Shown: piece by piece, positions 4,879-53,146 of the stretch
Numbering within the stretch: the first letter of the stretch is position 1
How the letters are laid out: each line of letters begins with the position of its first letter
Assembly (NCBI GenBank): GCA_903859415.1
Contig: CAIOMN010000260.1
Location: 1 to 57,789 of the forward strand
DNA length: 57,789 nucleotides
DNA from: an uncultured Methylococcaceae bacterium
GTDB lineage: Bacteria > Pseudomonadota > Gammaproteobacteria > Methylococcales > Methylomonadaceae
Direction of reading: 5' to 3'
Notes under the pieces: model-generated
What the model was told of the DNA's origin: nothing
Database searches by the model: none
What the model saw: the letters and a program-made list of their open reading frames with translations, nothing else
Translations under genes and position numbers: made by a program

Positions 4879-4881
4879 AAC

Positions 4882-5763: not shown

Positions 5764-6043
5764 GCAATCATCAGAACCCCTACCTTCTCTGCTTATAGGT
5801 TTAATCTCACTGTTGAACACATATTCCAATACATCAAATAAATCACTCTTTTCTGCATCTACCCATTTTTTCTGGACAGGACAGTTAATTCATCTTTAGA
5901 AAAATCTGCATCCGCTAGCTTCATAAGTAACTCACTTCAAATGATAAAGTTACTCCAAAGTTAATATTAAAACAGTAATTCTGGTGCTTGATAGTTTATT
6001 TCGTGCCAAAATATGCACAATCTTAATATTCATTCGAGAAACC

Positions 6044-30339: not shown

Positions 30340-31803
30340 ATGCGTAAATCGATACATAACACTATTGCTAGTCTTTCTATAGCATTTGCTGCCGCTGGTT
30401 CTTTTGCTGTTCAAGCACAGACCTTACAAGAAGCTGCAGATGCGGCTGGCGTATCTAAAATCAAATCAGTAGAGTTTTCAGGTACTGGACGCTGGTATCA
30501 ATTTGGTCAAGCCCCCAATCCTGAATCTGCTTGGCCTCCATTTGAAGTTAAAAGCTATACCGGCGATATCAATTACGAAACAGCCAGTGCGCGCGTTCAA
30601 TCAACCCGCTTTCAAGTGGTTGAGCCAGGCCGTTTTCGCCCTGCCCCCGTTGAACAACGCAACGACCAGTTTGTGAGTGGCAACACCGCCTGGAATGAAT
30701 CAACTACTGGCAACGCAGCCACCGAACAACCCGCTGCCGTTGAAGAACGTATAGCAGAAATCTGGTCAACCCCACACGGCTTTTTAAAAGCGGCTCTGGC
30801 AAACAATGGCACTTCAAAACCGCTTAGCGACGGTATTGAGGTTTCATTTACTGTGGGTGGTAAATATCATTACGTAGGCACGGTAAACGCTAAAAATCAA
30901 GTCACTGAAATAAGCACCTGGATTGATAATCCAGTCTTAGGTGATACTTTGGTAGAAACCAAATTCTTTGATTACAAAGATTTTGGCGGTATCCAGTTTC
31001 CTAGCCAAATCGTTCGTACCCAAGGTGGTCATCCCGTATTGGATATTAATGTAGCAACCGCCAAAGCTAACCCAAATATTGAAATTAAAGTACCTCAAGA
31101 TTTAACTAAAGCCCCTGCTGTTAATGTGGCTTCCGAGAAGATTTCAGAAGGGGTTTTTTATCTGACGGGTGGCACTCATCACAGTTTAGCAATTGATCAA
31201 ACAGACCATATCACCATTGTTGAAGCACCTCAAAATGAAGAGCGTTCGTTGGCTGTTATTGCAAAGGCTAAGGAACTGATTCCTAACAAACCCATTAAGT
31301 ACTTAATTAATACCCATGCTCACTTTGATCATGCCGGTGGCTTAAGAACTTTTGTGGACGAAGGTGCTAGCATTGTCACTTTGAAAGCTAACAAACCTTA
31401 TTATGAAAAAGTCTGGGCAACGCCTCACAGCATTCATCCCGACCGTTTAGAAGTCTCAAAGAAAGCACCCAACTTTGTTGCCCTGACTGATAAATGCGTA
31501 TTAGCTGATGAAAAACATCCTATAGAAATACACAGCATTGCTAACAATGGTCACAATGATGCGTTTGTTTTAGCTTACTTACCAAACGACAAAGTACTTA
31601 TAGAAGCGGATGCCTATACCCCATTAGCTGCAAACGCCCCAGTACCTACTTCATTGAACCCCTACGCAGCCAATCTTTACGAAAACGTTCAAAAACTAAA
31701 TTTGAATGTTGAAAAGATTGCTGCCCTGCACGGTCCTCGCCTCGTTGGTCTAGCTGATTTGCAAGCCTACATCGGCATACCACAGCAAGTTGCTGCTAAA
31801 TAA
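30340..31803 (+). CDS. Secreted metallo-beta-lactamase-fold hydrolase with ~260-aa N-terminal domain
   Basis: This 487-residue exported protein has a strong Shine-Dalgarno (AAGGAG) and a Sec signal (SIAFAAAGSFAVQAQ, cleavage after about residue 27). The C-terminal half is a metallo-beta-lactamase domain with metal motif INTHAHFDHAGG (about 324-334), further ligands in NNGHNDAFVL and EADAYTP, and a late His in LHGPRLV. The first half, after the signal (residues 28-260), is an unassigned beta-rich region (VEFSGTGRWYQFGQ, VEVSFTVGG-type strands) reminiscent of outer-membrane lipoprotein-carrier-like folds. The substrate cannot be deduced; the domain hydrolyses esters, lactams, thioesters or nucleotides in other proteins. 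It appears monocistronic with its own terminator. Confidence 0.82.
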   Translation: MRKSIHNTIASLSIAFAAAGSFAVQAQTLQEAADAAGVSKIKSVEFSGTGRWYQFGQAPNPESAWPPFEVKSYTGDINYETASARVQSTRFQVVEPGRFRPAPVEQRNDQFVSGNTAWNESTTGNAATEQPAAVEERIAEIWSTPHGFLKAALANNGTSKPLSDGIEVSFTVGGKYHYVGTVNAKNQVTEISTWIDNPVLGDTLVETKFFDYKDFGGIQFPSQIVRTQGGHPVLDINVATAKANPNIEIKVPQDLTKAPAVNVASEKISEGVFYLTGGTHHSLAIDQTDHITIVEAPQNEERSLAVIAKAKELIPNKPIKYLINTHAHFDHAGGLRTFVDEGASIVTLKANKPYYEKVWATPHSIHPDRLEVSKKAPNFVALTDKCVLADEKHPIEIHSIANNGHNDAFVLAYLPNDKVLIEADAYTPLAANAPVPTSLNPYAANLYENVQKLNLNVEKIAALHGPRLVGLADLQAYIGIPQQVAAK

Positions 31804-31815
31804 TACCCTCCGCTT

Positions 31816-31857
31816 AGATCAAGATAGAAGTGCAATGCTTTTATCTTGATCTTTTTT
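31816..31857 (+). terminator. Rho-independent terminator of the metallo-hydrolase gene
   Basis: AGATCAAGATA (31816-31826) pairs with TATCTTGATCT (31842-31852), an 11-bp stem, followed immediately by a T run (31852-31857), 13 bp past the stop codon. Confidence 0.9.
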
Positions 31858-31935
31858 CAAACTGGCATCGGTTTGGTTAGTTGATTAGATTTGAGCTATA
31901 CTCATCCCTAACACAACATACATTTTTACAATCCT

Positions 31936-33018
31936 ATGTTAAAACAAACACCCCTACATCAACTTCATCTTGAACTGGGTGCCAAAATGGTAGACTTTGC
32001 CGGTTACCATTTACCCATTTATTATCCAGAAGGTATTATTCGGGAGCATCTGCATTGCCGAAGTCATGCCGGGATTTTCGATATTTCTCACATGGGGCAA
32101 TGCCTAATTACGGGCGATCAAGCTGCAAATGCACTTGAACGCCTGACTGTCAGTGATATTTCAGGTTTAAAACCCGGTCAACAAAAATACACGCTGTTAA
32201 CAAATCAGGCAGGTGGTGTCATTGACGACATTATCATCTCTCGGTTAGAGACCGGCTTTATGATGGTGGTCAATGGTGCCTGTAAAGATAAAGACTTCAG
32301 CTATTTAGCGAGCCAGTTATCCGACCAATGCCAATTTAACGAACTTGACTCACGCGCCCTTATCGCTATTCAAGGACCCAAAACAGCGGACATTATTAGA
32401 AGATATTCAACCCTTGCGGCTGACTTATCATTTATGCACCTGTGTGAAACCGAACTGTGTGACATAAAATGTATCATCAGTCGAAGTGGCTATACGGGTG
32501 AAGATGGCTTTGAACTATCGGTTCCTAATAGTGATGCTGAGGCTTTAGCGCGTATACTGCTAGCAGAAACAGAGGTTAACCCGATAGGACTGGGCGCACG
32601 GAACACCTTGCGTTTAGAAGCGGGCTTGAGCCTCTACGGTCATGAACTCAGTGAAACTATAACGCCCATAGAAGCAGGACTACAGTGGGTCATTAATAAA
32701 GGTCATAACCAGTTCCCCGGTGCTTCTAAAATTCTTGAACAAATGAGACTGGGCACTGAAATAAAGCGGGTCGGATTGATGGTTGATAGCAAGTTACCGA
32801 TTCGGGAAGAGAGTATTATCTTAAACGAGGACGCGGTTGAAGTCGGCTATGTAACCAGCGGCAGTTTTTCACCCAGTCTTGGCAAGCCGATTGCCTTGGC
32901 ACTGCTAAATAAACACTATACTAGCGTGGGCACCCGATTATTCGCCATCGTACGTGATCTTAAGGTGCCAGTCACTGTGACACCGCTACCGTTTGTTCCT
33001 CATCACTATCACCGATAA
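31936..33018 (+). CDS. gcvT: Aminomethyltransferase (glycine cleavage T protein)
   Basis: GcvT (360 residues) releases ammonia from the aminomethyl-lipoyl H protein and passes the one-carbon unit to tetrahydrofolate. Family landmarks are [20 protein letters not shown] at the start, [51 protein letters not shown] (folate-binding core) and [20 protein letters not shown] at the end. The ATG gives the canonical N-terminus. gcvP follows after 5 bp, so the two are co-transcribed. The usual middle gene gcvH is missing from the operon and from this window. Confidence 0.95.
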
Positions 33019-33023
33019 CCGCT

Positions 33024-35927
33024 ATGACTACCGCACACACTCGTTTGAATCGATTGAATCCATTGGACATGCAGGATGATTTTGTCCATCGCCATATTGG
33101 GCTTACCCCGCCGCAACTGCATGACATATTAACCGAACTGGGCTTAACTGAACTGGATGACCTCATTGAACAAGTCCTGCCAACTGACATTGTTAATCAT
33201 GAAGCGTTTACAGTCACTGACACGCTCAGTGAAAACGCCCTCATTAAACGAATGCGCCAACTGTGCGAGGGTAATAAAGTCTTTACTTCAATGATCGGTA
33301 TGGGTTATTACGATACCTTCATGCCAGAGGTAATTAAACGTAATGTCCTGGAGAATCCCGGTTGGTACACGGCTTATACGCCTTATCAGGCAGAAGTTAG
33401 CCAAGGGCGGTTGGAAGCGTTACTCAACTTTCAACAAATGATCATCGACTTAACCGGCATGGACATAGCCAATGCCTCATTGCTCGATGAAGCAACAGCC
33501 GCAGCAGAAGCCATAAACCTGTCGAGACGCTTATCCAAGAGTACGTCTAATACCGTTATCGTTGATCATCATTGTCATCCACAAACGTTAGCGGTGGTCA
33601 AAACCCGCGCCCACTCAATGGGTTATGAGGTTATTGTTACTGACCCTTTTGATAACTTACAGCACTATGATTTCTTTGCTGTGTTAGTCCAATATCCAGA
33701 TACTAACGGCGAGATCAGAGACTTAAGTCCACTTACTGAAATAGCCCACACAAAATCAGCTTTAATGACCGTCGCCGCCGATTTGCTTAGCCTTGTGCTA
33801 TTAAAACCACCAGGGGCATTCGGTGTCGATATAGCGGTTGGCAGCGCCCAACGGTTTGGCGTTCCCATGGGATACGGTGGACCACATGCGGCTTTTTTTG
33901 CTACGAAGGATGAGTATAAGCGCTCCATACCGGGACGTATCATTGGTGTATCCAAAGACAGTCACGGCCATGTTGCCCTGCGTATGGCCTTACAAACCCG
34001 GGAACAACATATCCGTCGGGATAAAGCCACCAGTAACATTTGTACAGCACAAGTTTTACTTGCCGTTATCGCTGGCTTCTATGCCGTCTATCACGGTGCC
34101 GAAGGATTACGTCGAATTGCTGGACGTGTGCATCGCCACACCCTAATTCTGGCCACAGGTCTTGTTCAATTAGGTTATGAAGTAACGACGCAATGCTATT
34201 TTGATACGCTAGTCATTCCGGTTCCAAACCAGGCCAAACAGTTTATTTCACAGGCAGCCGAAGCCAATATCAACCTACGCCTGATTGATGATGACCATAT
34301 TGGTATTGCTTTAGATGAAACGACTACCCAACAACATATTCAAGCACTTTGGCAGCTATTTACCAAATCTACTGATGAAATGCCTGATATCAATCGCTTG
34401 AATGACGCGATGACTGAGTGCATCCCTGATTCATTATTACGTACCGACACCATTTTACAGCACCCCGTCTTTGAGCGTTACCATTCGGAAACCGAGATGA
34501 TGCGCTATCTGGGTAAACTCGCCAGACGGGACATTGCATTGGATCGTTCCATGATACCACTGGGTTCGTGTACGATGAAGCTGAATGCCGCGACAGAAAT
34601 GCAGACTCTTTCCTATCCTGAGTTTAGTGCCCTGCACCCTTTTACACCACGCTATCAGGCGCTTGGATTCCAACAGATGTTTAAGGAACTGGAAGAGAGG
34701 CTGTGTGATTTAACCGGTTTTGATGCTTTCTCGTTTCAACCGAATGCAGGTTCTCAAGGCGAATATACGGGCTTATTGGTGATTCGTAAATACCATGAAG
34801 TCAACGGTCAGGCTTACCGTACTATTTGCTTGATACCGGCTTCTGCACATGGCACTAACCCAGCCAGTGCGGTCATGGCAGGGCTTAAAGTGGTGGTGAT
34901 TGCCTGTGATGAGAAGGGCAATATCAGTCTGGATGATTTGCAGGCGAAAGTCACAGAACATCAGCACGCATTGGCAGCGCTAATGATTACTTATCCGTCC
35001 ACACATGGGGTTTTTGAAACCTCGTTCCGGCAAATATGCACGTTAATCCATGCGCATGGCGGACAGGTCTATCTGGATGGTGCCAATTTTAATGCCTTGG
35101 TCGGTTTGTGCCGACCCGGTAAAATAGGCGCGGATGTTGCCCACTTAAACCTGCACAAAACCTTCTGTATTCCACACGGTGGCGGTGGGCCAGGGGTGGG
35201 GCCTATCGGTGTCGGCGCCCATTTAGCGCCTTTTTTACCGGAACATCCGGTCGTTGAAGGCATCAATCCGGCTAAGGGCGCTCATGGCACTATTGGCACT
35301 GTTTCTGCCGCCCCTTGGGGTTCAGCCAGTATATATAGTATTCCCTGGGCTTATATAGCCATGATGGGTGTAGCCGGATTAAAGCGTGCGACCCTGACAG
35401 CGATTTTAAACGCCAATTACATAGCAAAACGTTTAGCGCCACATTATCCTATTTTGTACACAGGTAAAAATGGTTGGGTTGCGCATGAATGTATTATTGA
35501 TTGCCGTGAGTTTAAAAAAACTACCCACGTCACCGTAGAAGATATTGCCAAGCGCCTGATTGATTATGGCTTTCATGCCCCAACCGTGGCCTTTCCGGTT
35601 GCTGACACCCTGATGATCGAACCCACTGAAAGTGAGGATAAAAATGAACTGGATCGTTTTTGCAATGCCTTGATCGCTATCCGTGATGAAATCCGTATGA
35701 TTGAAACCGGCAACGCTGATATTAAAAATAACCTACTACACAATGCGCCGCACACGCATCGATTATTAATGGACGAATGGACATTTCCTTATTCCAAAGA
35801 GCAAGCATTTTTTCCTGACAGCCATCAACATAAGGATAAATATTGGCCGCCCGTAGGGAGAGTTGATAACGTCTATGGGGATCGGCATATTGTTTGTGCT
35901 TGTCCGCCTTTGGAGGAATATCTGTAA
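33024..35927 (+). CDS. gcvP: Glycine dehydrogenase (decarboxylating), P protein
   Basis: This 967-residue single-chain P protein is a PLP enzyme that decarboxylates glycine and loads the aminomethyl group on lipoylated H protein. N- and C-terminal halves are fused, as in most Gammaproteobacteria. Landmarks are [17 protein letters not shown] at the start, [29 protein letters not shown] at mid-protein, [16 protein letters not shown] and the PLP lysine in [17 protein letters not shown] near residue 712. With gcvT it supplies 5,10-methylene-THF and ammonia, relevant to serine and one-carbon metabolism in methylotrophs. It converges on the ATP-grasp-like gene, 26 bp between stops. Confidence 0.96.
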
Positions 35928-35953
35928 TCCAAGATTTGGGTTGGCATCTAACT

Positions 35954-37468
35954 TTATAAGCGAAACTGAGCCAAACCACTCCACATTTTAAGACTGACGC
36001 CATTTTGGGTCGATGACATAATATCCTCTGTCAATAGCCGAGAATGACTCAAACCTGCTGGCCGTGAATTTGCCTCTAAAAACACCGGGATGATATTTCC
36101 GTAGGGGTCATGGTCAAGCAGGACATCCAGTCCAATCAGAAGTAACCCCGGAAATAGACCGGCAGCCCGTTCGGATTGCTCACGTATTTTGTACCAGTCC
36201 TTCTCACTTAACTCAATAGGCTTACCCTTGGCATCATATCTAGAAATCAAGCCAGATAAAACTTCATTAATCGCAACGATATACCCACCTCTTCCACAAG
36301 CAGCAGGATAGTGCTCGTTAAGCCCCAGTTGTGCATACCCAGATTCCAAACAGAAACACTTGCCGTCGAATGCAAGATTTAACCGCAAGGCTAAGCTGTG
36401 AGTTGTCCCGGTAGCAAGATCACGAAATATTATTCCGTCACAGCGTTGTTGAACGAGGGCAGCACCCAGCTCCCAGCAATTGTTCAGATGCTGCTCCAAC
36501 CCAATTTTGGACTCAGCTTGATCGCGCCTAAAGAAGTCTACAAGTTTTCCTTCAGTGGCTTGATTAGGCTTAACAACGATCTCTTCAAAACTATCCAGAA
36601 ATCGCATGGCCGTATCCAGCTCTCCAGCTTTAACTTCTTGATAAGCCGGTATGGTCAGGCCTAAAGCTGACCAGCCAGACAAAGTGGCCGCTTTATTATC
36701 CGCAAACTGAGAAACACCTAATGGATTCAACTGCTTACAATTGAAAGGCTGCGAAAGAAGCGCATGTTTATTTATCTCTTGATCGCCCAGACATAGAAAT
36801 TGAGCACTATCGGCTCGCACATACAATTCCAGATCCGTTTCTATAAACCGACCCGTCGTGAAATCCAGGTAAATAATCCGTTTAAGTGTTCCATCTTCAT
36901 TAAGCCAATCCATATTGGCTCCCAGAACATTAATGCGTGGGCGTCCAAAGTTTTCGGAATCATGTACAAAAGCATCAATGACCAAGGGATAAAACTCATG
37001 GGTAAAGAAAAGCGCTGATGAGAAAATGATTGCGTGATTCCACTCTCCTTGCAGCGTAACCGAAAACTCATGCTGAGGTAGATAAGAAAATTTAATACAA
37101 ATCTCCGGTGCCAAAGGTTCACTTAACACCGCCTCCATTGCAAGTTCGATAATCCGATGCCGGTAAAGTGACGAGGAAAGGCAAAAGGTATCCCATGCAA
37201 TGCCCGGCACAGTCTTTAATTCCTTTTTGGCTGCCTCTATATCTATTAAAAGCCCTTCTATACGCTGTATCAGAGCTGCGCACGAATCAGATGATCGACG
37301 TATCCGCCAATAGTTTATTTCGTCTAGATCCAGCCCTTCCAACAAGAGGTATTTTAAAAAAACACTGACCTTATCTTGAGTTAGAAGAGAATTGGCAGCC
37401 ATTCCAAGACTGTCCAATGTCCGGCAATAGGCACTAACCACATGATTGCAATCAGGGAATAAAGGCAT
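35954..37468 (-). CDS. ATP-grasp-like protein, last gene of the giant-protein operon
   Basis: I do not recognise this 504-residue soluble protein as a known enzyme. Its C-terminal ~230 residues have an ATP-grasp pattern: FADNKAATLSGWSALGLTIP (lid-entry helix), EEIVVKPNQATEGKLVDFFR near 300 (Lys and loop binding ATP phosphates) and GLDVLLDHDPYGNIIPVFLEANSRPAG near 450-470, shown in part, the Glu/Asn metal-binding end. The N-terminal half has no assignable domain. ATP-grasp enzymes join a carboxylate to an amine or thiol through an acyl-phosphate. Its start lies inside the 3' end of the 2485-residue gene (17-bp overlap), so the two are translationally coupled and probably act together. The product of the reaction is unknown. 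Confidence 0.6.
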   Translation of the reverse strand: MPLFPDCNHVVSAYCRTLDSLGMAANSLLTQDKVSVFLKYLLLEGLDLDEINYWRIRRSSDSCAALIQRIEGLLIDIEAAKKELKTVPGIAWDTFCLSSSLYRHRIIELAMEAVLSEPLAPEICIKFSYLPQHEFSVTLQGEWNHAIIFSSALFFTHEFYPLVIDAFVHDSENFGRPRINVLGANMDWLNEDGTLKRIIYLDFTTGRFIETDLELYVRADSAQFLCLGDQEINKHALLSQPFNCKQLNPLGVSQFADNKAATLSGWSALGLTIPAYQEVKAGELDTAMRFLDSFEEIVVKPNQATEGKLVDFFRRDQAESKIGLEQHLNNCWELGAALVQQRCDGIIFRDLATGTTHSLALRLNLAFDGKCFCLESGYAQLGLNEHYPAACGRGGYIVAINEVLSGLISRYDAKGKPIELSEKDWYKIREQSERAAGLFPGLLLIGLDVLLDHDPYGNIIPVFLEANSRPAGLSHSRLLTEDIMSSTQNGVSLKMWSGLAQFRL

Positions 37469-40400
37469 CTTTAGTCATTGGCTGATTCAGATAAGCTTCA
37501 CCGGCACGATTTAAATCTCTCAGCACGATACGTGCGTTCTCGCCAATACGATCCCAGTTTGGATTATCACCTTCTGTACGGGCTCGCTCAAGCTCCTGAT
37601 ATTCCTCTCGTAAAGCCACTCGATCCCATAAGCCCACACCGATATTGGGTTCAATAAGCACAACCCGCCAATCGACAATAGTTCCTGGAATAAGCATAGC
37701 ACCCTGTTGCAGCATAAAACGGGAACCCGTCCGATTACCGAACTCATCAAAGATCGGTTGAATTTCAACAAACACGCCGTCTTGATCAAATACAGGGGCG
37801 ATAAGAAAATCCAGCATTAAATAACGCGGCATACCATAGGAAACGCCCATCAAGTCGGCACCCACTTTTCGCCCGGTTTCAAATGTATATTGGGCTGCAC
37901 TTTTCGCCTCATACCGAGATAAGGCTTCCATAACGCGCTGCCCGGCATCGGCTAACTTACTGATGATAGACCGTCGGTGTTCAGGACGAATAGTTTCCGG
38001 CTGTAACTGTTCGAGAGTGCCGCCTCTGCCCACATTAGTAATTAACTGTTTGCTGTTAAGGGTAATCCAATGGGAGATATGCCATTTCTTTTCGAGATCA
38101 ACCTCATTCGGATTATCCGTAGAAAGGATGATGCGATGCGAACCAAAGATAGGTGTGTACGGTTGGCGTTGACGGTTTACCGCGTTACCCCATTCAGTAA
38201 TTTGTCGATGGACAAAATTGCGCATAAACTCCTCGGTTGCCCAATGTTCTGGGGAACTGAGAATAACTTCCTGTATACACACATGATGCGTCAATGAGAT
38301 CTGGTAGATAAATTCGACTGCCAAGTGAAGTTGCGTTGAATCAAGACTCCCATCTGCCCTGCCTAGCTTAAACGCTTGAGCATTGCGCCCCCCGGATTCA
38401 GCTGCATCCTTGATCATGACCAAAGGATTGCGACGGGCAAAAGCGAGTAGACCCGGGTAATCCGTATCCGCTAGTCCGTTCAGAATAGTGTCTTTGATTT
38501 CCGACTTTTCAGTTGATAGTCCGGTATATTCGCTCAGCCAATCGATCTCATCGGGCATATTCACACCGCTGTCACGAAAAATGTCCCGGTATTTCGCTTT
38601 ATCGTATGTTGTCCAGGTATGAAACAGTGATTGCACCGTGAAAGGAAATCCACAAGCCTCAAGTTTACCTGTGTTATAAATCGGATCACCATGAAAAGGA
38701 TAAACTAATGCCGCCAGGATTGGGCGAGTAAACTTTGCCGCTATGCGTATGCCTTTAGGATGCAATCGGCTAGCCAAATATTGCGCAGCTTCCTGCCTGG
38801 AGTAGCCCTTGTGTGCCACTAGCGCATCTTCGTAAGTGGCAGGCTCCACATAAAAATGGCCACTGCTAATATATGCCACTGAACGAGAGTAGTGTGGTTC
38901 ATCTACGATATCGATTTTGCGGGTAATGATTAAATTGCACCCACGTCGGCCTTCTTCCGCCAATTCTCTGGTCAAACTTGGACCTTCGCACAGTGCACGA
39001 GAAAAATGGGTGCGGCCTACTGGAACAGCAAAGATATGATTGACCCTTGAAAGATCGTAGATCAGGTCTGGATGGAATTCTGCAAACACATCTGGAATCA
39101 CAAATCCATCATTACGGATAAAAGCCAATTCCCGTAACTGACCATAAGAACGCCAAATCTTTTCCGCATGTCCATCAGCCTCTGCACCAATAGCTTCAAC
39201 TTCATTGGCATTCAGATAATTGCCTAACAGCAAGTCCTGCTCTTGAACAGGCAACTCTCTAAGCTCGGAATAACAGGTAACGATGAATCGCAAGTAGCTG
39301 TATAGCCACTGATGGCGTTCCACTGCGAGCCTGTACATTTTCTCTCCCTTATAATCTGCATATCCAGTACCTCGACTGTAGACCCAAGGACGATATTCAT
39401 AACTATGATCATTTATAGTCATGGAGAAGAAACTGGATAATGCTCGCCATAACAACAGGGCATCCATTGTAGAAGGCGCCTCGCGAGTGAATTCCAGGGT
39501 ACTTTCGATCGCTAGAATGATATAGAACAATTCGGCACCTTGGGCAACGCAAACTAGCCCGTACTCCAGCGTTTCGGTATTGATTTTTCCTTGCAGGCCA
39601 CGCTCACGAATTCCTTGCGCCATACGCCCAAAGTCACCGATATCTTCGTAGCCCCCAGCAATCGATTGATAAACCTTCTCATCGGTTTGTCGCCCCGTTA
39701 AAAGTTGCTCCAGCCGTAACAACAGTCTCTGAGATTCCTCTGGATGCGCCTCGTTTCGGAACTCTTCGGCCAGTGCTAGCAAGGCATTTCGGGTATACCC
39801 AAGAAAAGCTCCGAATACTTCATCAGTAACAGGCTGATTGCCCGATCCTAGAACATCAATGGCCTTTCTGTAGTTATTTAAGAAACCGTCAGTGTCGTTT
39901 TGTATGCTGTTGAATGCGGCTTGACGCAGATTAAACGCACGAGCTTTTGCAATGCGCGTCGCCAAGTGTCGTCGGGTTTCCAAAGCAACCGTCGGCCTGT
40001 CCTCCATAGCTTTGTTTGAGCTTTCGACGCCTTTTTCCTGACGAAACTCAGAGACAGGCGCCCATTTAATTGAGGGTAAGAATACCGAAACACGTTGTCT
40101 ATCGGTCTGGCTGGCATTTCCTCCCAAAAAGGCAATACCCTTGATGAAGGATTCCTCTGCGGCACGAACATATTCCTCTGTTGCACCGACCAATATATAA
40201 AGCCCACCCAAAGCCAAAAAATCAATAAAGCTTAAGTCTTTTAGCAGGATTCCGCTGCCAATATGACTCAAGGTTTCAGAGAGTAATCGATCTCGCTCAT
40301 TGTCTCGGCCAAACCGAACCAGCTTATCCGTTTCAGACAAGGCCGACTCAATTTCGTGGTCAAGCTTTATCTCGCTAAGAATACGTTCATAAACCTGTTG

Positions 40401-43400
40401 AGCGATTATTGAATCCTGGTCAGTTAAGCTTTTCAAGAGCAATTCGGCTCTGCGACGTCGACGCCGCATATCCATCCTCCAGGCTTCGGCCGTTTGCTGC
40501 CCCAAACCCACGCTCATGTAAACAGTCTCTCGTCCTAAATGTTCCCCAGCGGCAAACCAGAGCATCACATCACCCCTGTTCATGGCCCGATGTCTCGCTC
40601 CAGCTGCTCCATCTACAATGACTAATGCACTATTTGGATTACCCTCTAGCATTAGCCTACATAGATGCGCGGGATCAGCTAGTACATCCAAGAGACTACG
40701 GTGTGGAATGCCGGTATCAATAACATCTGCACCTTTTAAGGCATACTCGTATTGACGTTCAGGCCCCAAGGTCGCCAATGCCAGCACATGGATGCGACCG
40801 CTAAACCGCTCCTCCAGATCGATCTTGATCGGTGATTCATGTCCGACACGATAACTCCATTGACTAAGCCGGGTACCCCAGGTTCTCAGGTTAGCTTCGA
40901 TTTCTTTGGCCGTCAGTCCTAAAGCCAGCAGTTCCTTTCGAGTTTCATCGGCAATGATTTCAAGTTGGGTATCACTGGTATAACTCAACAAATCCTGAGT
41001 GGACAATCCAGTCGGAGATACCATGCGAATTTCTGCAGGTGGCTGGGTGGCGGGGAACAAGTTGTGTAGTTGCCCCTCTATGAGATTGTCTTCTGTGTCG
41101 ATAGCCAACATTTCACGCATACGACCTGCCCAACCCTGCTCTTGTAACGCCTGATACCCCTCATGCATCAATACCGCAATAATCCGGCCATCCCTATCAA
41201 GCGCATTGAGTAAATGGCTCGCTGTGCCTGCAAGAATCTCGAACTTACGAAGCCCCGTAGCAAATCGGGCATCTTGTGTATCCGGTTTATATTCGGCAGT
41301 CAGCACGACGACCGAGTTTTCTACGGTAATAGGTAGTTGTGGGTGCCGCTTTGCTGCTTCCGCGATCGACTGACGAATGAGCCAAGCCTTAAAAAAGGGC
41401 ATAAATCGATTAACCTGTTCGCCCCCCGTCACCATCTTATGCAATCCCCAACCAGCTGCCAGAGAAGATGCAACCTTATACGAACTGCGCAATTCCGGTT
41501 TACCCAGATTATCCAGCACATGCGCGATACGGGTGATTTGAAACACCTGCACACCACGGTTCATTGAAAAATAGGGCTTCAGACAATCCTGTTGTTGCAA
41601 TTGGTTGGCGGCCCATTCTTCCCATTCTAATTGGCTGACAAACTCCGACTTATAATCTAGTAGATGATTGGCCAGTAAAATGACATTGTGATGATAGGCT
41701 TCTGGCAAACCAATCTGGCGTAATTTTTCTGCCCTATTTAAGGTCAGCACGAACTCCAGGAAAAGGCCGTCCTTGGGAACACAATAGCCACCATAACCTT
41801 CACCGGCTGGATGTATGTGTCGATCAAAACGTCGATTCATGAGATCGGCCATCACCTCAAAATCACCGTGTGCAGACGCAGTAATCATCATGCTAAGCGC
41901 GTTAGAAAAAGCGTAATGGGATGCCATCGACGCATTTTCACCTGTCTTTAAAATCTCGGGTTCGGTGAGACTTTCAAAAATACGAACGTCTTTGTTAATC
42001 AGACTGTATATTTGTCGCCCTGCCTGAATGGCCGCTCGGTCAGCACCACCGATCCATTGTGACCAGGTTTCTACCGACTCACGTTCACGTTGTCCTAAAT
42101 CTACCCGGCTGGGTGTATAAATAAGATGGTATCGCTTACCACCACCGGTTGCCTTAAAATAATAGAGTGGATTGAGGGTCAGGTGATTCAAACCTTCTTC
42201 TGCAATGACCTCTTTGCGTGCCGTCGTCTTACGCAGTTGTTGAAATCGTCGCAAATAGGTTTCACAATATTCACCAAGATGAAGTTGTGGATGTTCCTTA
42301 TTTAAGTCCTCCAGGACACGGCGACGGGCAGCGAAGCGCATAGAGGCCTGTAAATCCTGACGGTAGTATTCGTCTTCCAAAACTATACAACGTAAAGATT
42401 CAGGGTGATTTTGCTCCGAATTATCACTCTCCGCTTCATTTATCTGACGGCTTAGTACCTCGTGGTTACGTGAGATAACAAGCATTAATGCAGCATCTTG
42501 CAATGCTTCGGAATGCTGATTCAGACAGTCCTCGACCGCGTTGATATCCTCGCATTCTTCAGCCAGTCGTCGACCCTGTTTAATCTCGTCGAATTCAATC
42601 AGCATACCCAGACAGGACAACTCATCCTGAATGAGGCGATTTCTATTGATGAGTCTCAGTATAGCGGTTGATTGCGATAGTTGCTCATTGACACACAACT
42701 CATCAACTTCTATCCAGGCACCCAATTCAAGGATTATCTTCTTACCCAAACTGACTAAGCGGGAAGTAAAAAAGGCTTCACGTTCTGCGATTTCTTCATG
42801 CAAGCCCAAATCTTCGGCAATATTAAAAAGCGCCATGGACTCTTCGAGCCAAGTACGAATATACCCTTCGGTCATGCCGGCTGACTGGGTGGTCAGAACA
42901 TGTAACGTAGGAAATACACGCCGCGGCTTCAAAGCATGATGTTTAAAGTCAGCTAGTTGTTGCTCAAAGTTTTTATTAAACCCCCTTGATTGGAGCACCT
43001 GCCTTACGGAAATTGCCCAAGACCCAGACACCCGATAATGTTCTTCAAGCTGCTGCAAACTTTCGCTAGCTAACAGAATTTTCCGCAGGGCATCAAAATG
43101 ACAAAGCTCTTCGGCTTCAATCAACTTTTGGATTTGATCAAGCTGTTCGCGATAAATCTCACCCAACAAGATACCCAGGGCAGCGATTTCTCCTGAGTCG
43201 AATTCCTCTCTTAACCGCTGACGCTTAACCTCTTCGTCAAGATCAGGAAATTTCCCTGCTGACACGTATTCCCTGGCTAAACACAATAGCTCACTTTTCA
43301 GCACTTGCTGAATATTGCGTGCCCATAGATCCGCCATTTCCTCTCGAAATGATACTTCCATACTGGAAATATCGATGACGGTACGAGTCGTTTCCTGGCC

Positions 43401-44909
43401 CTCATGCACCCATATTTCCTCTTTGATAAAAAGAGGAATAGCTTCGATCCAGTGATCGGCCACTTCCAGCCAGCCGTAGTCTGGACTGCAGTAGATTCGC
43501 TCTCCAGCAAGTCGAACCAGCTTTCGTAAATTTTCCGCCTTACCTAAATAAGGGTCCTGAAACTCATTGGTCTTGATCAGTAGATGTGACCCGGTAGGCG
43601 AAGGCCGTTGACTGATTACCACATAAGCCGCATGTCGTTTAGCAGAGCTCAAAAACGCCTGACGAATAACTTCTATCTGGTGTAAGCATTTTCCTGTTAA
43701 GGTCATTACCGCATCGTGTGTAACAATGGGGTTGAATTGTCCCGCCAAGGGATCATTGCAATCCTCCATCCGTGCACGTGAAGATGCAATAGCATTCGAT
43801 AAAGCTCTTTTTTGTTCTTCAAGAACAGTATCCTCGAAACGCTCACAAGCACCTTCAAGCGTTGTTAAGGGCACTTCCTCGGTGCTAGTCAATAGCAACT
43901 TTAACGCGCCCGTACTGGGTAGCAAAGCCGGAATTTTTTCCACCAGTAAAAACAGCTCAGCAGCCAATTCACGCCAGGCTAAATTGGGCTTCAGTAAGAC
44001 CGCATTGGCGAAAAGCGTTGCCTGATTATGAAAAGCACGACTCATGCGCCCAAAAATCAATTGTTGTTGGGCTTCGTGAACTTCGGTGGAGATACGCTCA
44101 ATATTACGACCTTCTAGCGCTCTATCATAGGTTCGTAGCAAACTGTAAAGCTGTGAACGCTGCTCGTCCGGGTCCGTATCTCCCTTCAGGATATCTATTG
44201 CTACCTGTCGCTGATAAGGTAAATCAACCCTATCCTGCCCCAGTAGCCAGGTAATATGGTGATCTAGCAATACCTTTTGATCCTGCGTTTTAATATCGTC
44301 AGTTGATTCTAATGCTACCCGCTTAAGGAAAATTGAAAACGGGTTGCCACTATCCAGCAAAGGACCCTCCAGCATCGCATGTAAGATGTCTCTTTCAGGT
44401 TTTGAAAATGAACTGTAGAGATCAGCTACTTTGGCTAATGCCTGGCGCTTAGATAAACCCTGCCAAAGCAAAAAAAGATGACAGTGTCCCAATAGCAGCA
44501 AGTATTCGAATCCCTGCTGCTCTTTTGTCTTGGCTAGCCGTATTGCCACGTCGCAGGCAATTGAAATGATTGCACCCGTAGCATCTATGTCGAGTAAGTA
44601 CTCGTGAGCTTCGATAAAGTTGATAGCAAACTCACGCCCAGCCAACTTTTCATAGATGTCCTTAACTATTGGATCATCCTTGAAACGGGTGTACATTAGC
44701 GTGAGTGCATTTTCACAAGCTTGTGCAGTCATTGAAACCCCTTGATCGGGATCATCAATTACAATGACTTGAGTATTTGCTAAGGGATGTTGTCCAAATC
44801 GGTAAACGCCCCTGGCAACACACTTCCCAATACCACGGCGACCCAGTGAAGCTCCATTCTGAGTATTGATCAGTTCGACAATACGTAATGGAAAGCTATC
44901 AATACTCAT
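37452..44909 (-). CDS. Giant uncharacterised protein, 2485 aa
   Basis: This single uninterrupted frame of 7.5 kb has no signal peptide and no clear transmembrane helix, so it is a soluble cytoplasmic protein. I cannot assign it as a whole. The N-terminal ~600 residues are helical, followed by a coiled-coil-like, acidic helical region (about 600-900). The middle (about 920-1500) is mixed alpha/beta with distinctive segments such as YKATGGGKRYHLIY-type (YYFKATGGGKRYHLIYTPS), HPAGEGYGGYCVPKDGLFLE and ALVIVDGAAGARHRAMNRGD. The last ~400 residues carry an ATP-grasp-like pattern: LVMIKDAAESGGRNAQAF near 2170, IQEVILSSPEHW, ITNVGRGGTLEQL and LIAPVFDQDGVFVEIQPIFD near 2380. Its partner gene, overlapping by 17 bp, is also ATP-grasp-like; a DUF47/PhoU-like gene lies 33 bp upstream. 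Confidence 0.8.
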   Translation of the reverse strand: MSIDSFPLRIVELINTQNGASLGRRGIGKCVARGVYRFGQHPLANTQVIVIDDPDQGVSMTAQACENALTLMYTRFKDDPIVKDIYEKLAGREFAINFIEAHEYLLDIDATGAIISIACDVAIRLAKTKEQQGFEYLLLLGHCHLFLLWQGLSKRQALAKVADLYSSFSKPERDILHAMLEGPLLDSGNPFSIFLKRVALESTDDIKTQDQKVLLDHHITWLLGQDRVDLPYQRQVAIDILKGDTDPDEQRSQLYSLLRTYDRALEGRNIERISTEVHEAQQQLIFGRMSRAFHNQATLFANAVLLKPNLAWRELAAELFLLVEKIPALLPSTGALKLLLTSTEEVPLTTLEGACERFEDTVLEEQKRALSNAIASSRARMEDCNDPLAGQFNPIVTHDAVMTLTGKCLHQIEVIRQAFLSSAKRHAAYVVISQRPSPTGSHLLIKTNEFQDPYLGKAENLRKLVRLAGERIYCSPDYGWLEVADHWIEAIPLFIKEEIWVHEGQETTRTVIDISSMEVSFREEMADLWARNIQQVLKSELLCLAREYVSAGKFPDLDEEVKRQRLREEFDSGEIAALGILLGEIYREQLDQIQKLIEAEELCHFDALRKILLASESLQQLEEHYRVSGSWAISVRQVLQSRGFNKNFEQQLADFKHHALKPRRVFPTLHVLTTQSAGMTEGYIRTWLEESMALFNIAEDLGLHEEIAEREAFFTSRLVSLGKKIILELGAWIEVDELCVNEQLSQSTAILRLINRNRLIQDELSCLGMLIEFDEIKQGRRLAEECEDINAVEDCLNQHSEALQDAALMLVISRNHEVLSRQINEAESDNSEQNHPESLRCIVLEDEYYRQDLQASMRFAARRRVLEDLNKEHPQLHLGEYCETYLRRFQQLRKTTARKEVIAEEGLNHLTLNPLYYFKATGGGKRYHLIYTPSRVDLGQRERESVETWSQWIGGADRAAIQAGRQIYSLINKDVRIFESLTEPEILKTGENASMASHYAFSNALSMMITASAHGDFEVMADLMNRRFDRHIHPAGEGYGGYCVPKDGLFLEFVLTLNRAEKLRQIGLPEAYHHNVILLANHLLDYKSEFVSQLEWEEWAANQLQQQDCLKPYFSMNRGVQVFQITRIAHVLDNLGKPELRSSYKVASSLAAGWGLHKMVTGGEQVNRFMPFFKAWLIRQSIAEAAKRHPQLPITVENSVVVLTAEYKPDTQDARFATGLRKFEILAGTASHLLNALDRDGRIIAVLMHEGYQALQEQGWAGRMREMLAIDTEDNLIEGQLHNLFPATQPPAEIRMVSPTGLSTQDLLSYTSDTQLEIIADETRKELLALGLTAKEIEANLRTWGTRLSQWSYRVGHESPIKIDLEERFSGRIHVLALATLGPERQYEYALKGADVIDTGIPHRSLLDVLADPAHLCRLMLEGNPNSALVIVDGAAGARHRAMNRGDVMLWFAAGEHLGRETVYMSVGLGQQTAEAWRMDMRRRRRRAELLLKSLTDQDSIIAQQVYERILSEIKLDHEIESALSETDKLVRFGRDNERDRLLSETLSHIGSGILLKDLSFIDFLALGGLYILVGATEEYVRAAEESFIKGIAFLGGNASQTDRQRVSVFLPSIKWAPVSEFRQEKGVESSNKAMEDRPTVALETRRHLATRIAKARAFNLRQAAFNSIQNDTDGFLNNYRKAIDVLGSGNQPVTDEVFGAFLGYTRNALLALAEEFRNEAHPEESQRLLLRLEQLLTGRQTDEKVYQSIAGGYEDIGDFGRMAQGIRERGLQGKINTETLEYGLVCVAQGAELFYIILAIESTLEFTREAPSTMDALLLWRALSSFFSMTINDHSYEYRPWVYSRGTGYADYKGEKMYRLAVERHQWLYSYLRFIVTCYSELRELPVQEQDLLLGNYLNANEVEAIGAEADGHAEKIWRSYGQLRELAFIRNDGFVIPDVFAEFHPDLIYDLSRVNHIFAVPVGRTHFSRALCEGPSLTRELAEEGRRGCNLIITRKIDIVDEPHYSRSVAYISSGHFYVEPATYEDALVAHKGYSRQEAAQYLASRLHPKGIRIAAKFTRPILAALVYPFHGDPIYNTGKLEACGFPFTVQSLFHTWTTYDKAKYRDIFRDSGVNMPDEIDWLSEYTGLSTEKSEIKDTILNGLADTDYPGLLAFARRNPLVMIKDAAESGGRNAQAFKLGRADGSLDSTQLHLAVEFIYQISLTHHVCIQEVILSSPEHWATEEFMRNFVHRQITEWGNAVNRQRQPYTPIFGSHRIILSTDNPNEVDLEKKWHISHWITLNSKQLITNVGRGGTLEQLQPETIRPEHRRSIISKLADAGQRVMEALSRYEAKSAAQYTFETGRKVGADLMGVSYGMPRYLMLDFLIAPVFDQDGVFVEIQPIFDEFGNRTGSRFMLQQGAMLIPGTIVDWRVVLIEPNIGVGLWDRVALREEYQELERARTEGDNPNWDRIGENARIVLRDLNRAGEAYLNQPMTKDAFIP

Positions 44910-44942
44910 ACTTAACTTAGCCCTATAAACAAGAAGGACAAT

Positions 44943-45575
44943 TTATTTTTGGCGGAACTTGACAATTCGCTCTAGCAAGAGCCCTGCATGATAAGCATCA
45001 TCCGTTATTTGCTCCAATACGCCTAAAATCTCAGTCCAGTTATTTTCTTCGATCAATGAAAGCACCAGCACTCTTCGCTGTTTCTTCCGCCATTCATGAT
45101 AGATCAAGTCCGCATTTTCTTCATGCTTTTTAAGTGTTTTAGTACACAGCTTTATACTTGCCAACTCAATGTCTGGATAGTGTGCTATCTCAATCTGCAG
45201 TGTTTCAATCATTGATACGAGTGTTGCCAAAATCTCATAAGCGGCATTCTCAATTTGCCTTGGATGACAGATATCAATCAGCCTGGCCGTATCATTCATT
45301 CCATCGACGATATCATCCAGGCGTTTAGTTAACTGCTCAGTGATATAAATATATTCGGAGTAAGTCAGCAATTCAAGACTGCTGTAGGCTTCCGCTGTCA
45401 ATTTATCGCCTATTTCTTCCAGGTTTTTAACCTTCGAAATATAATGATCCGGGTCCACAAGATTCAAGAAAAGCTCGTTAAGAGCCTTACCGCATTCAAG
45501 GGTGTTATCGAGATGCTCCTTAAAGATAACTTCCAGAGGGCGTAAATTTTGATGATCAACTTGATCAATGCTCAT
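44943..45575 (-). CDS. DUF47/PhoU-like helical protein
   Basis: This 210-residue all-helical protein fits the DUF47 (PhoU-related, phosphate-transport accessory) family: two three-helix halves with acidic metal-binding-type motifs. Visible are FKEHLDNTLECGKALNELFL, EEIGDKLTAEAYSSLEL, RLDDIVDGMNDTARLIDIC (E/DxxxD-like) and KKHEENADLIYHEW, then LEQITDDAYHAGLLLERIVK. Family members partner with Pit phosphate transporters or act as phosphate-signalling adaptors; no transporter is adjacent here. Instead it is the first gene of an operon with the giant protein (33-bp gap) and the ATP-grasp-like protein. A second, canonical PhoU lies 5 kb upstream on the same strand. A sensory or adaptor role for the operon is inference. 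Confidence 0.75.
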   Translation of the reverse strand: MSIDQVDHQNLRPLEVIFKEHLDNTLECGKALNELFLNLVDPDHYISKVKNLEEIGDKLTAEAYSSLELLTYSEYIYITEQLTKRLDDIVDGMNDTARLIDICHPRQIENAAYEILATLVSMIETLQIEIAHYPDIELASIKLCTKTLKKHEENADLIYHEWRKKQRRVLVLSLIEENNWTEILGVLEQITDDAYHAGLLLERIVKFRQK

Positions 45576-45848: not shown

Positions 45849-47036
45849 TTAGATGAATATCCGGTCCAACGTATGACGAGCAATCATTTGATTTTCATCG
45901 GTCGCGATTACCCAGGCAGACACTTTTGAACCCACGATTGAAATACACGTATCACCCAATTCATTAGCCGAAGCATCCAGCTCTAAACCCAGCCAGGCGG
46001 CCTGATTACAAATTCTCGCACGAATAACGGCAGAGTTCTCACCAATACCCCCCGTAAATACCAGCGCATCCAGCCCTCCTAAAGCTGCGGCCAGCGAGCC
46101 TATTTCACGTCCAATACGATACACAAACAAAGCAATCGCCTCTTCTGCCTGAGGATCTTGACTGGCAAGCAACTGACGTATATCACTTGAGATGCCTGAA
46201 ACGCCCAATAACCCCGATTCATGATAGAGCAACTGCTCTAAGGCGTGGACATCCAGATGGTGATATTCCATCAGATACAACAACACGCCCGGATCAATAC
46301 TGCCACAGCGCGTCCCCATCAACAAGCCATCTAATGGCGAGAATCCCATTGTCGTTGCTACGCTACGTCCGTTATAAACCGCGCATAAACTAGCCCCACT
46401 CCCTAAGTGAGCGATAATAATCCGCGCCTTAGCAAAGCAAGGCTGAAGATCGGGCAAAATGGAGACGATATATTCATAAGACAAACCATGAAATCCGTAC
46501 CGACGAATACCCGCATCAGTCAAGTGCTGAGGGATTGCGAAACATTGCGCAACAGTCGGTTGTGTACGATGATAGGCCGTATCAAAACACGCTACTTGCG
46601 GTAACGAAGGCATCCTATTCAGAAGTTCACGAATAATCGCAAGATTGTGTGGTTGATGGAGTGGCGCTAAGGGAATAAGCTTTTCTAATTCAATGAGCAC
46701 ATTTTCATCAATTAACACCGGTGCAAAATAATGCGGTCCACCATGCACAACACGATGCCCCACCGCGAGCAATGTCACCTTCGAAAAATAATCCTGTAAC
46801 CACCCCATCATCAGATCAATAGCGGCTTTATGATCATGCACACCGGATGCAGATAGGTCAGGCGTAGCGAGCACTGAACCCTCTACATTTTTTACTACAA
46901 AATTTAACTGAGTGTTAATACCCTCAATTTGCCCAGTAGCCTCGACTATTTGTTGTTCTGATAAATAATCTACTGAGTAAACAGTAAACTTGATGCTTGA
47001 AGAACCCGCGTTAACCACCAGCAAATAACTATTCAT
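45849..47036 (-). CDS. ackA: Acetate kinase
   Basis: AckA (395 residues) interconverts acetyl phosphate + ADP and acetate + ATP. The start is set at the ATG giving MNSYLLVVNAGSSSIKFTVY, the canonical N-terminus with the phosphate-binding NAGSSS. The frame stays open 96 bp upstream, but that stretch is the REP-like element at 47096-47156. Other family marks are VGHRVVHGG, FDTAYHRTQP (catalytic Asp), RRYGFHGLSYEY, AHLGSGASLCAV and FTGGIGENSAVIRA. It follows the phosphoketolase gene on the same strand (221 bp), so acetyl phosphate made there can be turned into ATP here. Confidence 0.96.
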   Translation of the reverse strand: MNSYLLVVNAGSSSIKFTVYSVDYLSEQQIVEATGQIEGINTQLNFVVKNVEGSVLATPDLSASGVHDHKAAIDLMMGWLQDYFSKVTLLAVGHRVVHGGPHYFAPVLIDENVLIELEKLIPLAPLHQPHNLAIIRELLNRMPSLPQVACFDTAYHRTQPTVAQCFAIPQHLTDAGIRRYGFHGLSYEYIVSILPDLQPCFAKARIIIAHLGSGASLCAVYNGRSVATTMGFSPLDGLLMGTRCGSIDPGVLLYLMEYHHLDVHALEQLLYHESGLLGVSGISSDIRQLLASQDPQAEEAIALFVYRIGREIGSLAAALGGLDALVFTGGIGENSAVIRARICNQAAWLGLELDASANELGDTCISIVGSKVSAWVIATDENQMIARHTLDRIFI

Positions 47037-47095
47037 AAACCTGATTATCTTTCTGTGAACGTCAAGGTAAGACGCAATAATAATACGCCGTTTAT

Positions 47096-47156
47096 ATTGG
47101 AGTAAAATAGCTTTAGCTGTTTTTACAGGCAATAGCTGAAGCTATTGCACTCCTGT
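47096..47156 (-). repeat. REP-like double-hairpin element, copy 2 (inverted)
   Basis: The reverse complement reads ACAGGAGTGCAATAGCTTCA... to TTTTACTCCAAT. It forms a perfect 9-bp hairpin GCAATAGCT/AGCTATTGC with a 2-nt loop, a second imperfect hairpin (ACAGCT/AGCTAT) and an outer GGAGT/ACTCC pair. It lies between phosphoketolase and acetate kinase genes and may set their relative mRNA levels. Its partner is at 30039-30100. Confidence 0.8.
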
Positions 47157-47191
47157 TTAACTATTTTATTTATTGCGAGTTGCCCAAGTGC

Positions 47192-47225
47192 CTGTAAGCT
47201 CTCATAAACCAAGGAGAGCTTACAG
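47192..47225. terminator. Strong 12-bp hairpin behind the phosphoketolase gene
   Basis: CTGTAAGCTCTC and GAGAGCTTACAG pair perfectly over 12 bp with a 10-nt loop, 33 bp past the xfp stop. There is no U tract on either strand, so it may be an mRNA-end protecting hairpin or partial terminator rather than a classical one. Confidence 0.5.
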
Positions 47226-47257
47226 TTACAACTTCTCAATAATACCTTAATGGTCGC

Positions 47258-49645
47258 TTAATAAGGCCATTCCCAGTGATCATCTTCTGGCCTATCGATG
47301 CCGTGTTCGTAAGCGTAATTCTGACATTCAATTTGCTGATTACGGAGCTTTTCTTTAACGTGAGCGCCAGCAACCTGTAGCGACGGAATACGATCAATGG
47401 CATCAATCGCCAGACTAAAGCGATCCGTTTCATTTTGAATAGCCAACTCTAAAGGCGTATTAATGCTGCCTTTTTCTTTATAACCACGGACATGCAGATT
47501 CTTGTGGTTATTACGTCGATAAGCCAGACGATGAATGAGCCAGGGATAACCATGGAAATTGAAAATAACCGGTTTATCCAAGGTAAACAAGCTGTCAAAA
47601 TCACGATCCGAAAGCCCATGCGGATGCTCACTGCTGGGCACTAGCTTATAAAGATCGACGACATTAATAAAGCGAATTTTAAGCGTCGGAAAATTTTCAC
47701 GTAACAATACGGTTGCAGCTAGCGCTTCTTTTGTCGGAATATCACCGGCACTCGCCATCACCAGATCAGGCTCAAAGCCTGCATCGTTACTCGCCCATTC
47801 CCAGATACTAATCCCTTTTATACAGTGCTTAATGGCTGAGTCCATATCAAGGTATTGTAGATGCTTCTGTTTGTCGCAAACAATCACATTGATATTATCT
47901 GTACTTTTAAGGCAATGGTCAGCGACTGATAACAAGCAATTCACATCGGGCGGCAGATAAATGCGAGTCACAGAAGGACTCTTATTCACCACAAGATCAA
48001 GAAAGCCAGGGTCTTGATGCGTAAAGCCATTGTGATCCTGACGCCAGACAGTCGAAGTAATCAACAGATTAAGCGAAGAAACGGAAGCACGCCAAGGGAC
48101 AGCTTTAGCCATCGCTAGCCATTTCGCATGCTGATTAAACATAGAGTCGATAACATGCACAAATGCTTCATAAGTAGAAAAGAAGCCATGCCGACCGGTC
48201 AATAAATAGCCTTCCAACCAACCTTCGAGGGTATGCTCGGACAACATCTCCATCACCCGCCCAAAAGGTGATAACTCACCGCCATCCGCGTCTTCAACAA
48301 ACGACTCGGCCATCCAGGTTTTCTTGCTGACCTCATAAATACTATCTAACTTGTTAGAACTATTTTCATCCGGCCCAAAGACTCTAAAATTATGCATGTT
48401 TGAACGCATAATATCCCGTAAGAACTGTCCCAACGGTGGCGTATTTTCAGCACTCACTTTACCCGGCCCTTCAAGTGCTAAGGCATAATCCCTAAAATCA
48501 GGCATCCGTAAAGCTTTACGCAGTAAACCGCCATTGGCGCTGGGATTTGCGCTCATCCGGCGATGTCCTTTAGGCGCTAATAGTTTAAGCTCGGGAATTA
48601 ACCGACCTTTCTCATCGAAGAGTTCTTCCGGTTTATAACTCCGCAACCAGTCTTCCAGCATTTTCAGGTGAGCTGGATTTTGTTTTACGTTTGTTAAAGG
48701 CACTTGATGAGCACGCCAAAAGCCTTCCACTTTATGTCCGTCTACTTCTTTAGGGCCTGTCCAGCCTTTCGGACTCCGCAGCACAATCATCGGCCAATGC
48801 GGACGTACTGGAATACCTGTGCTTCTTGCCTCATGTTGAATCCGCTTAATCTCAAGGATACATTCTTCAAGAACCCCCGCCATTTGCTGATGCATAGCTT
48901 CAGGGTCACTGCCTTCTACAAAGTAAGGCGCATAACCATAGCCCTGAAACAACTGCTTTAACTCATCATGGGGAATACGGGATAAGAAAGTAGGATTGTT
49001 TATTTTATAGCCATTCAGATGCAATATAGGCAATACAGCGCCATCACAAATGGGATTAAGAAACTTATTAGAATGCCATGACGTAGCCAATGGCCCTGTT
49101 TCGGCTTCACCATCACCGACAACCACAGCGACTATTAAATCAGGATTATCAAAAGCGGCTCCATAAGCATGAGAAATACTATAGCCTAGCTCTCCACCTT
49201 CATGAATAGAACCCGGTGTTTCTGGTGTACAGTGACTACCAATCCCGCCCGGAAAAGAAAACTCTTTAAAAAACTGCAATAAGCCGTCTTCATCTTCACC
49301 TTTATTAGGATAAATTTCTGCGTAAGTACCTTCAAGATAAACCGGTGCCAATACGCCGGGCGCACCGTGTCCCGGGCCTGCTAAAAATATAGTATCCAGA
49401 CCGTATTTATTAATCATTCTGTTTAAATGAATATAAATAAAACTTAAGCCCGGACTGGAACCCCAATGGCCTAACAGCCGATTCTTAATATGTTCTGGCT
49501 TTAACGGTTCTTTCAGTAAAGGATTATCCCGAAGATAAATCATACCCGCCGCTAAATAAGTTGATGCACGCCAGTAGGCGTTGATATGATTTAACTCCTC
49601 TACACTTAATGGTGTAGAACCAGTTGATTGTTCAGATAGTGTCAT
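47258..49645 (-). CDS. xfp: Phosphoketolase (xylulose-5-P/fructose-6-P)
   Basis: This TPP enzyme splits xylulose-5-P or fructose-6-P with inorganic phosphate into acetyl phosphate and glyceraldehyde-3-P or erythrose-4-P. The ATG at 49645 gives a 795-residue protein beginning [19 protein letters not shown], matching the family's usual distance to [18 protein letters not shown]; the frame is open to an ATG at 49717 and neither start has a good ribosome binding site. Family marks are [63 protein letters not shown] (TPP/metal motif) and [14 protein letters not shown]. It precedes ackA on the same strand, an arrangement that makes acetate and ATP from sugar phosphates without carbon loss. Confidence 0.96.
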
Positions 49646-49847
49646 TAGAGCATAACTCACATAAGGGGTTGAAGGATTTAAAGCAATGCTTGGGTTTATT
49701 GGATAAACATTATTCAACTGGATACGTTAACCCTGATTAAAGATGATTAACATACATAATGATTCCCTAAGCAAAGTTATTATACTGTCTAGTATTCAAG
49801 GTATTAATACTATATTTGATGTCTTACTATAAAAACTAGCGTGGAAA

Positions 49848-50549: not shown

Positions 50550-50606
50550 TATTCTCTCCTGATTATCCATTACGATAAACTTTACTTTGGCAGCCTTATT
50601 CAACCA

Positions 50607-53117: not shown

Positions 53118-53146
53118 GATTTAATCCTTAAATTAAGTTAATCGGC

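Follow-up and report, generated by a model that had tools for sequence, protein, structure and literature searches.

Two described systems are among those closest to the locus analysed here. The glucuronokinase of zebrafish is fused to a putative UDP-sugar pyrophosphorylase domain, the activity of which is given as putative (PMC3938481). The TupA-like ATP-grasp domain at the C-terminus of Cj1438, an enzyme of capsule formation, amidates glucuronate at its C6 carboxylate (PMC11800379). A limited search of the literature found no description of the system presented below.

The window, the whole stretch of 57,789 nucleotides that was analysed, belongs as one contig to an assembly of 3.7 Mb (G000), and its host is presumably a methanotroph of the order Methylococcales. 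The ORF listing of the window contained three minus-strand ORFs, all with ATG starts. The first encodes a 210-aa DUF47/PhoU-like protein (44943..45575, minus strand), the second a 2485-aa protein, termed the giant, which is the core of the system (37452..44909, minus strand), and the third a 504-aa protein, the partner of the giant (35954..37468, minus strand). The genes for the 210-aa and 2485-aa proteins are separated by a 33-bp gap and those for the 2485-aa and 504-aa proteins overlap by 17 bp, just as the sequence-only reading of this DNA had described the three genes and their spacing. Upstream of the DUF47 gene, positions 45849-55027 hold a same-strand run of genes for acetate kinase, phosphoketolase, PhoU, glycogen phosphorylase and a pyruvate-kinase-barrel protein. 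On the other side, gcvT and gcvP (read by eye; 31936-35927) lie between a metallo-beta-lactamase-family gene and the system; both are missing at the same place in the sister genome G017 (locus L031, 5913-7491, compared with window 31803-37468). Farther away, at 4069-6976 of the window, genes for DRAT and ADP-ribosylglycohydrolase precede a RimK gene.

Within the order, 311 genomes were searched with residues 1060-2485 as query, and 15 of them have the giant. These 15, one of which is the window's, belong to two families and to 6 of the 50 genera. Outside the order, no convincing match to the giant sequence was obtained: 398 genomes of the phylum returned the window's own copy and one chance-level match (query residues 1060-2485), and 350 genomes of the class returned the window's own copy only (profile of residues 1290-2485). 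The chance-level match, in G110 (30% over 106 aa, with one stop), was in a small ORF with an unrelated neighbourhood and was rejected. An exact-peptide-pattern scan of genome contigs matched the sister genome alone.

Twelve genomes, the window's included but not G017, have uninterrupted complete copies of the giant. The 11 complete uninterrupted relatives outside the genus of the window were 2417-2544 aa in length and shared 50-71% identity with the window's protein, and alignment of 12 giants from six genera gave 710 invariant columns; the giant is therefore a real gene. Comparison with the G017 copy showed a dN/dS of about 0.13 overall, 0.34 for residues 1-300 and 0.045 for residues 921-1250, the most constrained of the seven segments compared; in the DUF47 gene the ratio was 0.09, and in the gene of the 504-aa partner 0.24. 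The G017 giant (L031) has an in-frame stop at codon 1042, beside a conserved cysteine, which reflects either decay or an assembly error.

The sequence-only reading could not assign the giant to any family; this needs correction, as profile searches placed a UDP-sugar dehydrogenase catalytic-core region at residues 923-1055 (41745..42143, minus strand). PF00984 matched at E 7e-6 with 26.5 bits (cut-off 25.4), was the only Pfam family at E <= 1 in the 2485 residues, and was found by Pfam in all 12 aligned giants. TIGR03026 (NCBIfam) matched residues 923-1055 at E 1e-16, with a score of 60.8 bits that is far below the full-length cut-off of 189.8; the one other NCBIfam match was unrelated (E 0.02). 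Phmmer comparison with PDB sequences matched dehydrogenases, a PDB sequence profile of the giant retrieved dehydrogenases only, and hhalign aligned residues 883-1174 at E 2e-11 with a set of ten ordinary dehydrogenases from related genomes, the tail of this alignment being doubtful. As judged by these profiles, the core of the giant is homologous to UDP-sugar 6-dehydrogenases. Most of the remainder of the 2485 residues matched no named Pfam or NCBIfam family.

Two motifs of the core could be aligned with those of the dehydrogenases. KTGEN (residues 988-992; 41934..41948, minus strand) aligned with their invariant K...N, and GGYCVPKD (residues 1040-1047; 41769..41792, minus strand) aligned with their invariant GGxC...D. 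Both sequences were invariant among the giants, so that all 12 aligned proteins, that of the window among them, have the Lys/Asn (KxxEN) and Cys/Asp (GGxCxPKD) motifs; in the dehydrogenases, the residues of these motifs have catalytic roles. Each of the ten ordinary dehydrogenases has a glutamate in the PER motif, where the giant has a serine (PSR, residues 933-935). KPDTQDAR (residues 1208-1215; 41265..41288, minus strand) resembles a motif of the C-terminal, UDP-binding domain of dehydrogenases, and hhalign of sub-segments in three cuts placed it in register with that domain (E 0.007, 0.01 and 0.074); this match is only suggestive because the tail of the longer 883-1174 alignment puts the motif elsewhere. 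Hhalign of three stretches in residues 400-930 with the dehydrogenase N-terminus detected no NAD-binding Rossmann domain, and for this reason the giant was not filed as a standard dehydrogenase.

AlphaFold2 was run on sub-alignments of residues 120-1315 and 1290-2485, with 13 and 14 rows, and gave models with mean pLDDT of 59.6 and 63.9. Both the dehydrogenase core and much of the C-terminal part were predicted with low confidence. The best-predicted part was a mostly helical region at residues ~1471-1895 (39225..40499, minus strand), with pLDDT mostly 80-94 and a weak stretch near residues 1610-1650. Foldseek comparison of both models with the PDB gave no match at E <= 0.001, the models being too weak, and the predictions neither support nor refute the domain assignments.

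These observations bear on a reading in which the dehydrogenase-like core has no redox activity and serves to sense or bind a sugar nucleotide, the giant acting as a regulator or scaffold whose output comes from the ATP-grasp partner. The loss of the PER glutamate, the result for residues 400-930 and the predicted helical nature of much of the giant, as in scaffolds, are consistent with it; however, all 12 proteins keep the Lys, Asn, Cys and Asp residues of the two motifs, a conservation that binding alone would not call for, and we regard this reading as rather doubtful.

Both the 504-aa protein and the last ~400 residues of the giant had been described as ATP-grasp-like in the sequence-only reading. 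For the 504-aa protein, this description was upheld: hhalign matched it to the RimK-like profile at E 2e-5, and PF14397 matched 13 of 13 scanned members of its family at E <= 0.5, the lowest E being 5.5e-6; the protein of the window scored 18.1 bits, under the Pfam cut-off of 31.4. YheCD matched 6 of the 13 scanned members (best 1.2e-8). An assignment of the 504-aa protein to the ATP-grasp proteins is supported by these profile matches. Its matches to a designer pentatricopeptide protein and other weak matches were dropped, as single repeats score at chance.

In the giant, a possible ATP-grasp domain was located at residues ~2160-2430 (37620..38432, minus strand). All 12 proteins had the motif order K..GG / QE / N..RGG / D / E.N in the C-terminal 270 residues; 0 of 20000 shuffles reproduced this order, for a pattern chosen post hoc. 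The match of the C-terminus to the RimK profile (E 0.015-0.024) was not significant, and Pfam ATP-grasp matches were sub-threshold and found in one of the three C-termini scanned. Profile comparison of the C-terminal half and the C-terminus with the 504-aa family gave no match. A single PDB sequence profile match of the C-terminus (E 0.27) was at chance level and was rejected. In the relative at L057, the separation of the LDFL and IEPN motifs is 18 residues, not 49; the motif spacing of ordinary ATP-grasp proteins is closer to 18 residues. For the giant, the earlier description is thus partly supported, by motif order. The idea of two ligases is half secured, the 504-aa partner being ATP-grasp by profile and the C-terminus of the giant a candidate by motif order.

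In all 15 genomes (13 loci, G017 and the window), the gene of the 504-aa protein comes directly after that of the giant, so the two form a conserved pair. The 210-aa protein matched PhoU_div/DUF47 in Pfam with 27.1 bits, above the cut-off of 24.4, and its earlier naming as DUF47/PhoU-like was correct. Its gene directly precedes that of the giant only in the window's genome and G017. Among the other 13 genomes, upstream genes were visible in 11, and a DUF47 gene was adjacent in none of the 11; in G488, a DUF47 homologue lies about 3.5 kb upstream of the giant. The order of the three genes is thus not conserved across genomes, the pair alone being kept.

The sequence-only reading had further suggested a three-gene machine in which the DUF47/PhoU protein serves as a phosphate-type sensor. 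The 33-bp spacing in the window, the same gene order in G017 and the G488 homologue are in keeping with such a machine, but the adjacency is confined to the window and its sister genome, four f4 genomes that lack the giant have their DUF47 homologues elsewhere, and the window's DUF47 gene is also part of the run of same-strand genes that encode acetate kinase, phosphoketolase, PhoU and glycogen phosphorylase. The sensor was not borne out as a part of the system, a three-gene machine of this kind is highly improbable, and the DUF47 protein is probably outside the conserved system.

Two companion genes were found in relatives. A GHMP-type sugar kinase was present in 7 and a GalU-type uridylyltransferase in 6 of the 15 giant-bearing genomes. 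The kinase gene directly follows the ATP-grasp gene in four genomes; it follows GalU in G492, where it is split over two contigs, in G493 it is a fragment that contains stops, and in G494 it stands next to GalU on a separate contig. GalU follows the system on the same contig in five genomes, in G495 at about 1 kb downstream. Two of the six GalU companions were tested with TIGR01099 and scored 333.8 and 356.7 bits, above the cut-off of 326.8; the remaining four were 62-66% identical to one of the two tested. PF00288 was found in three of the three kinases tested, and their best NCBIfam matches were mevalonate and heptose-phosphate kinases, far under the cut-offs. A motif may link this kinase to glucuronokinase. 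At E 1e-10, a kinase match was missing in 8 of the 15 genomes, the window's included, some assemblies being fragmentary.

Of the eight kinase-bearing genomes among the 311 of the order, seven also have the giant (hypergeometric P 1e-9, calculated as if genomes were independent and with no correction for kinship). In G650, the kinase is beside an unrelated gene and no giant was detected. A plasmid of Rufibacter tibetensis carries an adjacent kinase (48.5% identical) and GalU (54% identical), and the plasmid search with residues 1060-2485 did not find the giant on it; because they are paired there without the giant, kinase and GalU look like a self-contained module for UDP-sugar supply.

The patchy distribution of the giant (15 of 311 genomes, 6 of 50 genera) and flanking genes that differ in most genomes would also suit a mobile conflict or phage-defence cassette built on a large ATP-dependent protein pair. 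The search results make this very unlikely. No PADLOC model matched the giant, the 504-aa protein or the DUF47 protein at E 0.1, and a weak match of the L055 kinase to a restriction-enzyme model (E 0.0016, 15.8 bits) is probably spurious. The giant had no match in phages at E 0.01, none in viral contigs by peptide patterns and, for residues 1060-2485, none in plasmids at E 0.01; the whole giant at E 10 gave 308 plasmid records, of which the 30 matches listed all hit the dehydrogenase region. Moreover, the companions are sugar-nucleotide genes.

The reading we prefer, which is put forward tentatively and at somewhat less than an even chance, is that the two proteins serve one pathway, in which the giant acts on a UDP-sugar by oxidising or remodelling it and the carboxylate so formed is linked to an amine by the ATP-grasp partner. 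Where present, the GHMP kinase and GalU would make the UDP-sugar from free sugar. The dehydrogenase-type core of the giant would then act at C6 of the UDP-sugar via its cysteine, the most likely reaction being oxidation to the uronate. The ATP-grasp partner would activate the carboxylate with ATP and join it to an amine, giving a uronamide or an aminoacyl-uronate, and the giant's own C-terminal ATP-grasp domain would perhaps share in the activation of the carboxylate. The reaction and its direction are inferred, as are the amine, the product and the place where NAD would bind. Published precedents are the glucuronate-amidating domain of Cj1438 for the final step (PMC11800379) and the zebrafish fusion enzyme for the supply of the UDP-sugar (PMC3938481).

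The invariant core motifs (12 of 12), the strong constraint on residues 921-1250, the ATP-grasp partner (15 of 15), the sugar-nucleotide companions of relatives and the co-occurrence of kinase and giant argue for this pathway. Given that no Rossmann domain was found in residues 400-930, that the score is far below the full-length cut-off and that the PER glutamate is a serine, the core may not oxidise anything. It also counts against the pathway that GalU is beside the system or its kinase in only 6 of 15 genomes and the kinase is unmatched in 8 of 15, as do the G650 kinase without the giant, the stop at codon 1042 in G017, the low AlphaFold2 confidence at the core and the merely putative pyrophosphorylase activity of the zebrafish enzyme. 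A further point against it is that no glycosyltransferase family was recognised in the giant/504-aa pair by Pfam and NCBIfam, or beside the pair in the window. A more specific form of this pathway, which we consider unlikely, is a single-chain, assembly-line-like synthase, in which the giant would oxidise the UDP-sugar at a core with a non-standard cofactor site; the uronate, either free or still bound to the cysteine, would then pass to the ATP-grasp sites of the giant itself and of its partner, where the amide would be formed.

An unknown giant ORF now has defined residues and companion genes for testing. If its core is active, it would be a UDP-sugar dehydrogenase of unusual build, without a recognisable NAD domain, and part of an unfamiliar pathway of sugar-acid modification in methane-oxidising bacteria; a single-chain synthase, if true, would be a multi-step enzyme family seen so far in one bacterial order.

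Like the UDP-glucose/GDP-mannose dehydrogenases (TIGR03026, PF00984), the giant has the K...EN and GGxCxPKD motifs in its core and a possible C-terminal-domain motif. In contrast to these enzymes, which are about 400 aa long, its core is embedded in a chain of 2485 aa, hhalign of residues 400-930 showed no NAD-binding Rossmann domain, and serine takes the place of the PER glutamate. The GHMP-type kinase beside the GalU-type uridylyltransferase in some relatives resembles the zebrafish fusion enzyme (PMC3938481), whereas kinase and GalU are separate genes in the relatives and the kinase is absent from the window's genome. Compared with the TupA-like amidoligase domain of Cj1438 (PMC11800379), the 504-aa protein differs in matching the ATPgrasp_ST, YheCD and RimK-like profiles, mostly weakly; like that domain, it is an ATP-grasp protein, in a context of uronate formation that is putative in this locus.
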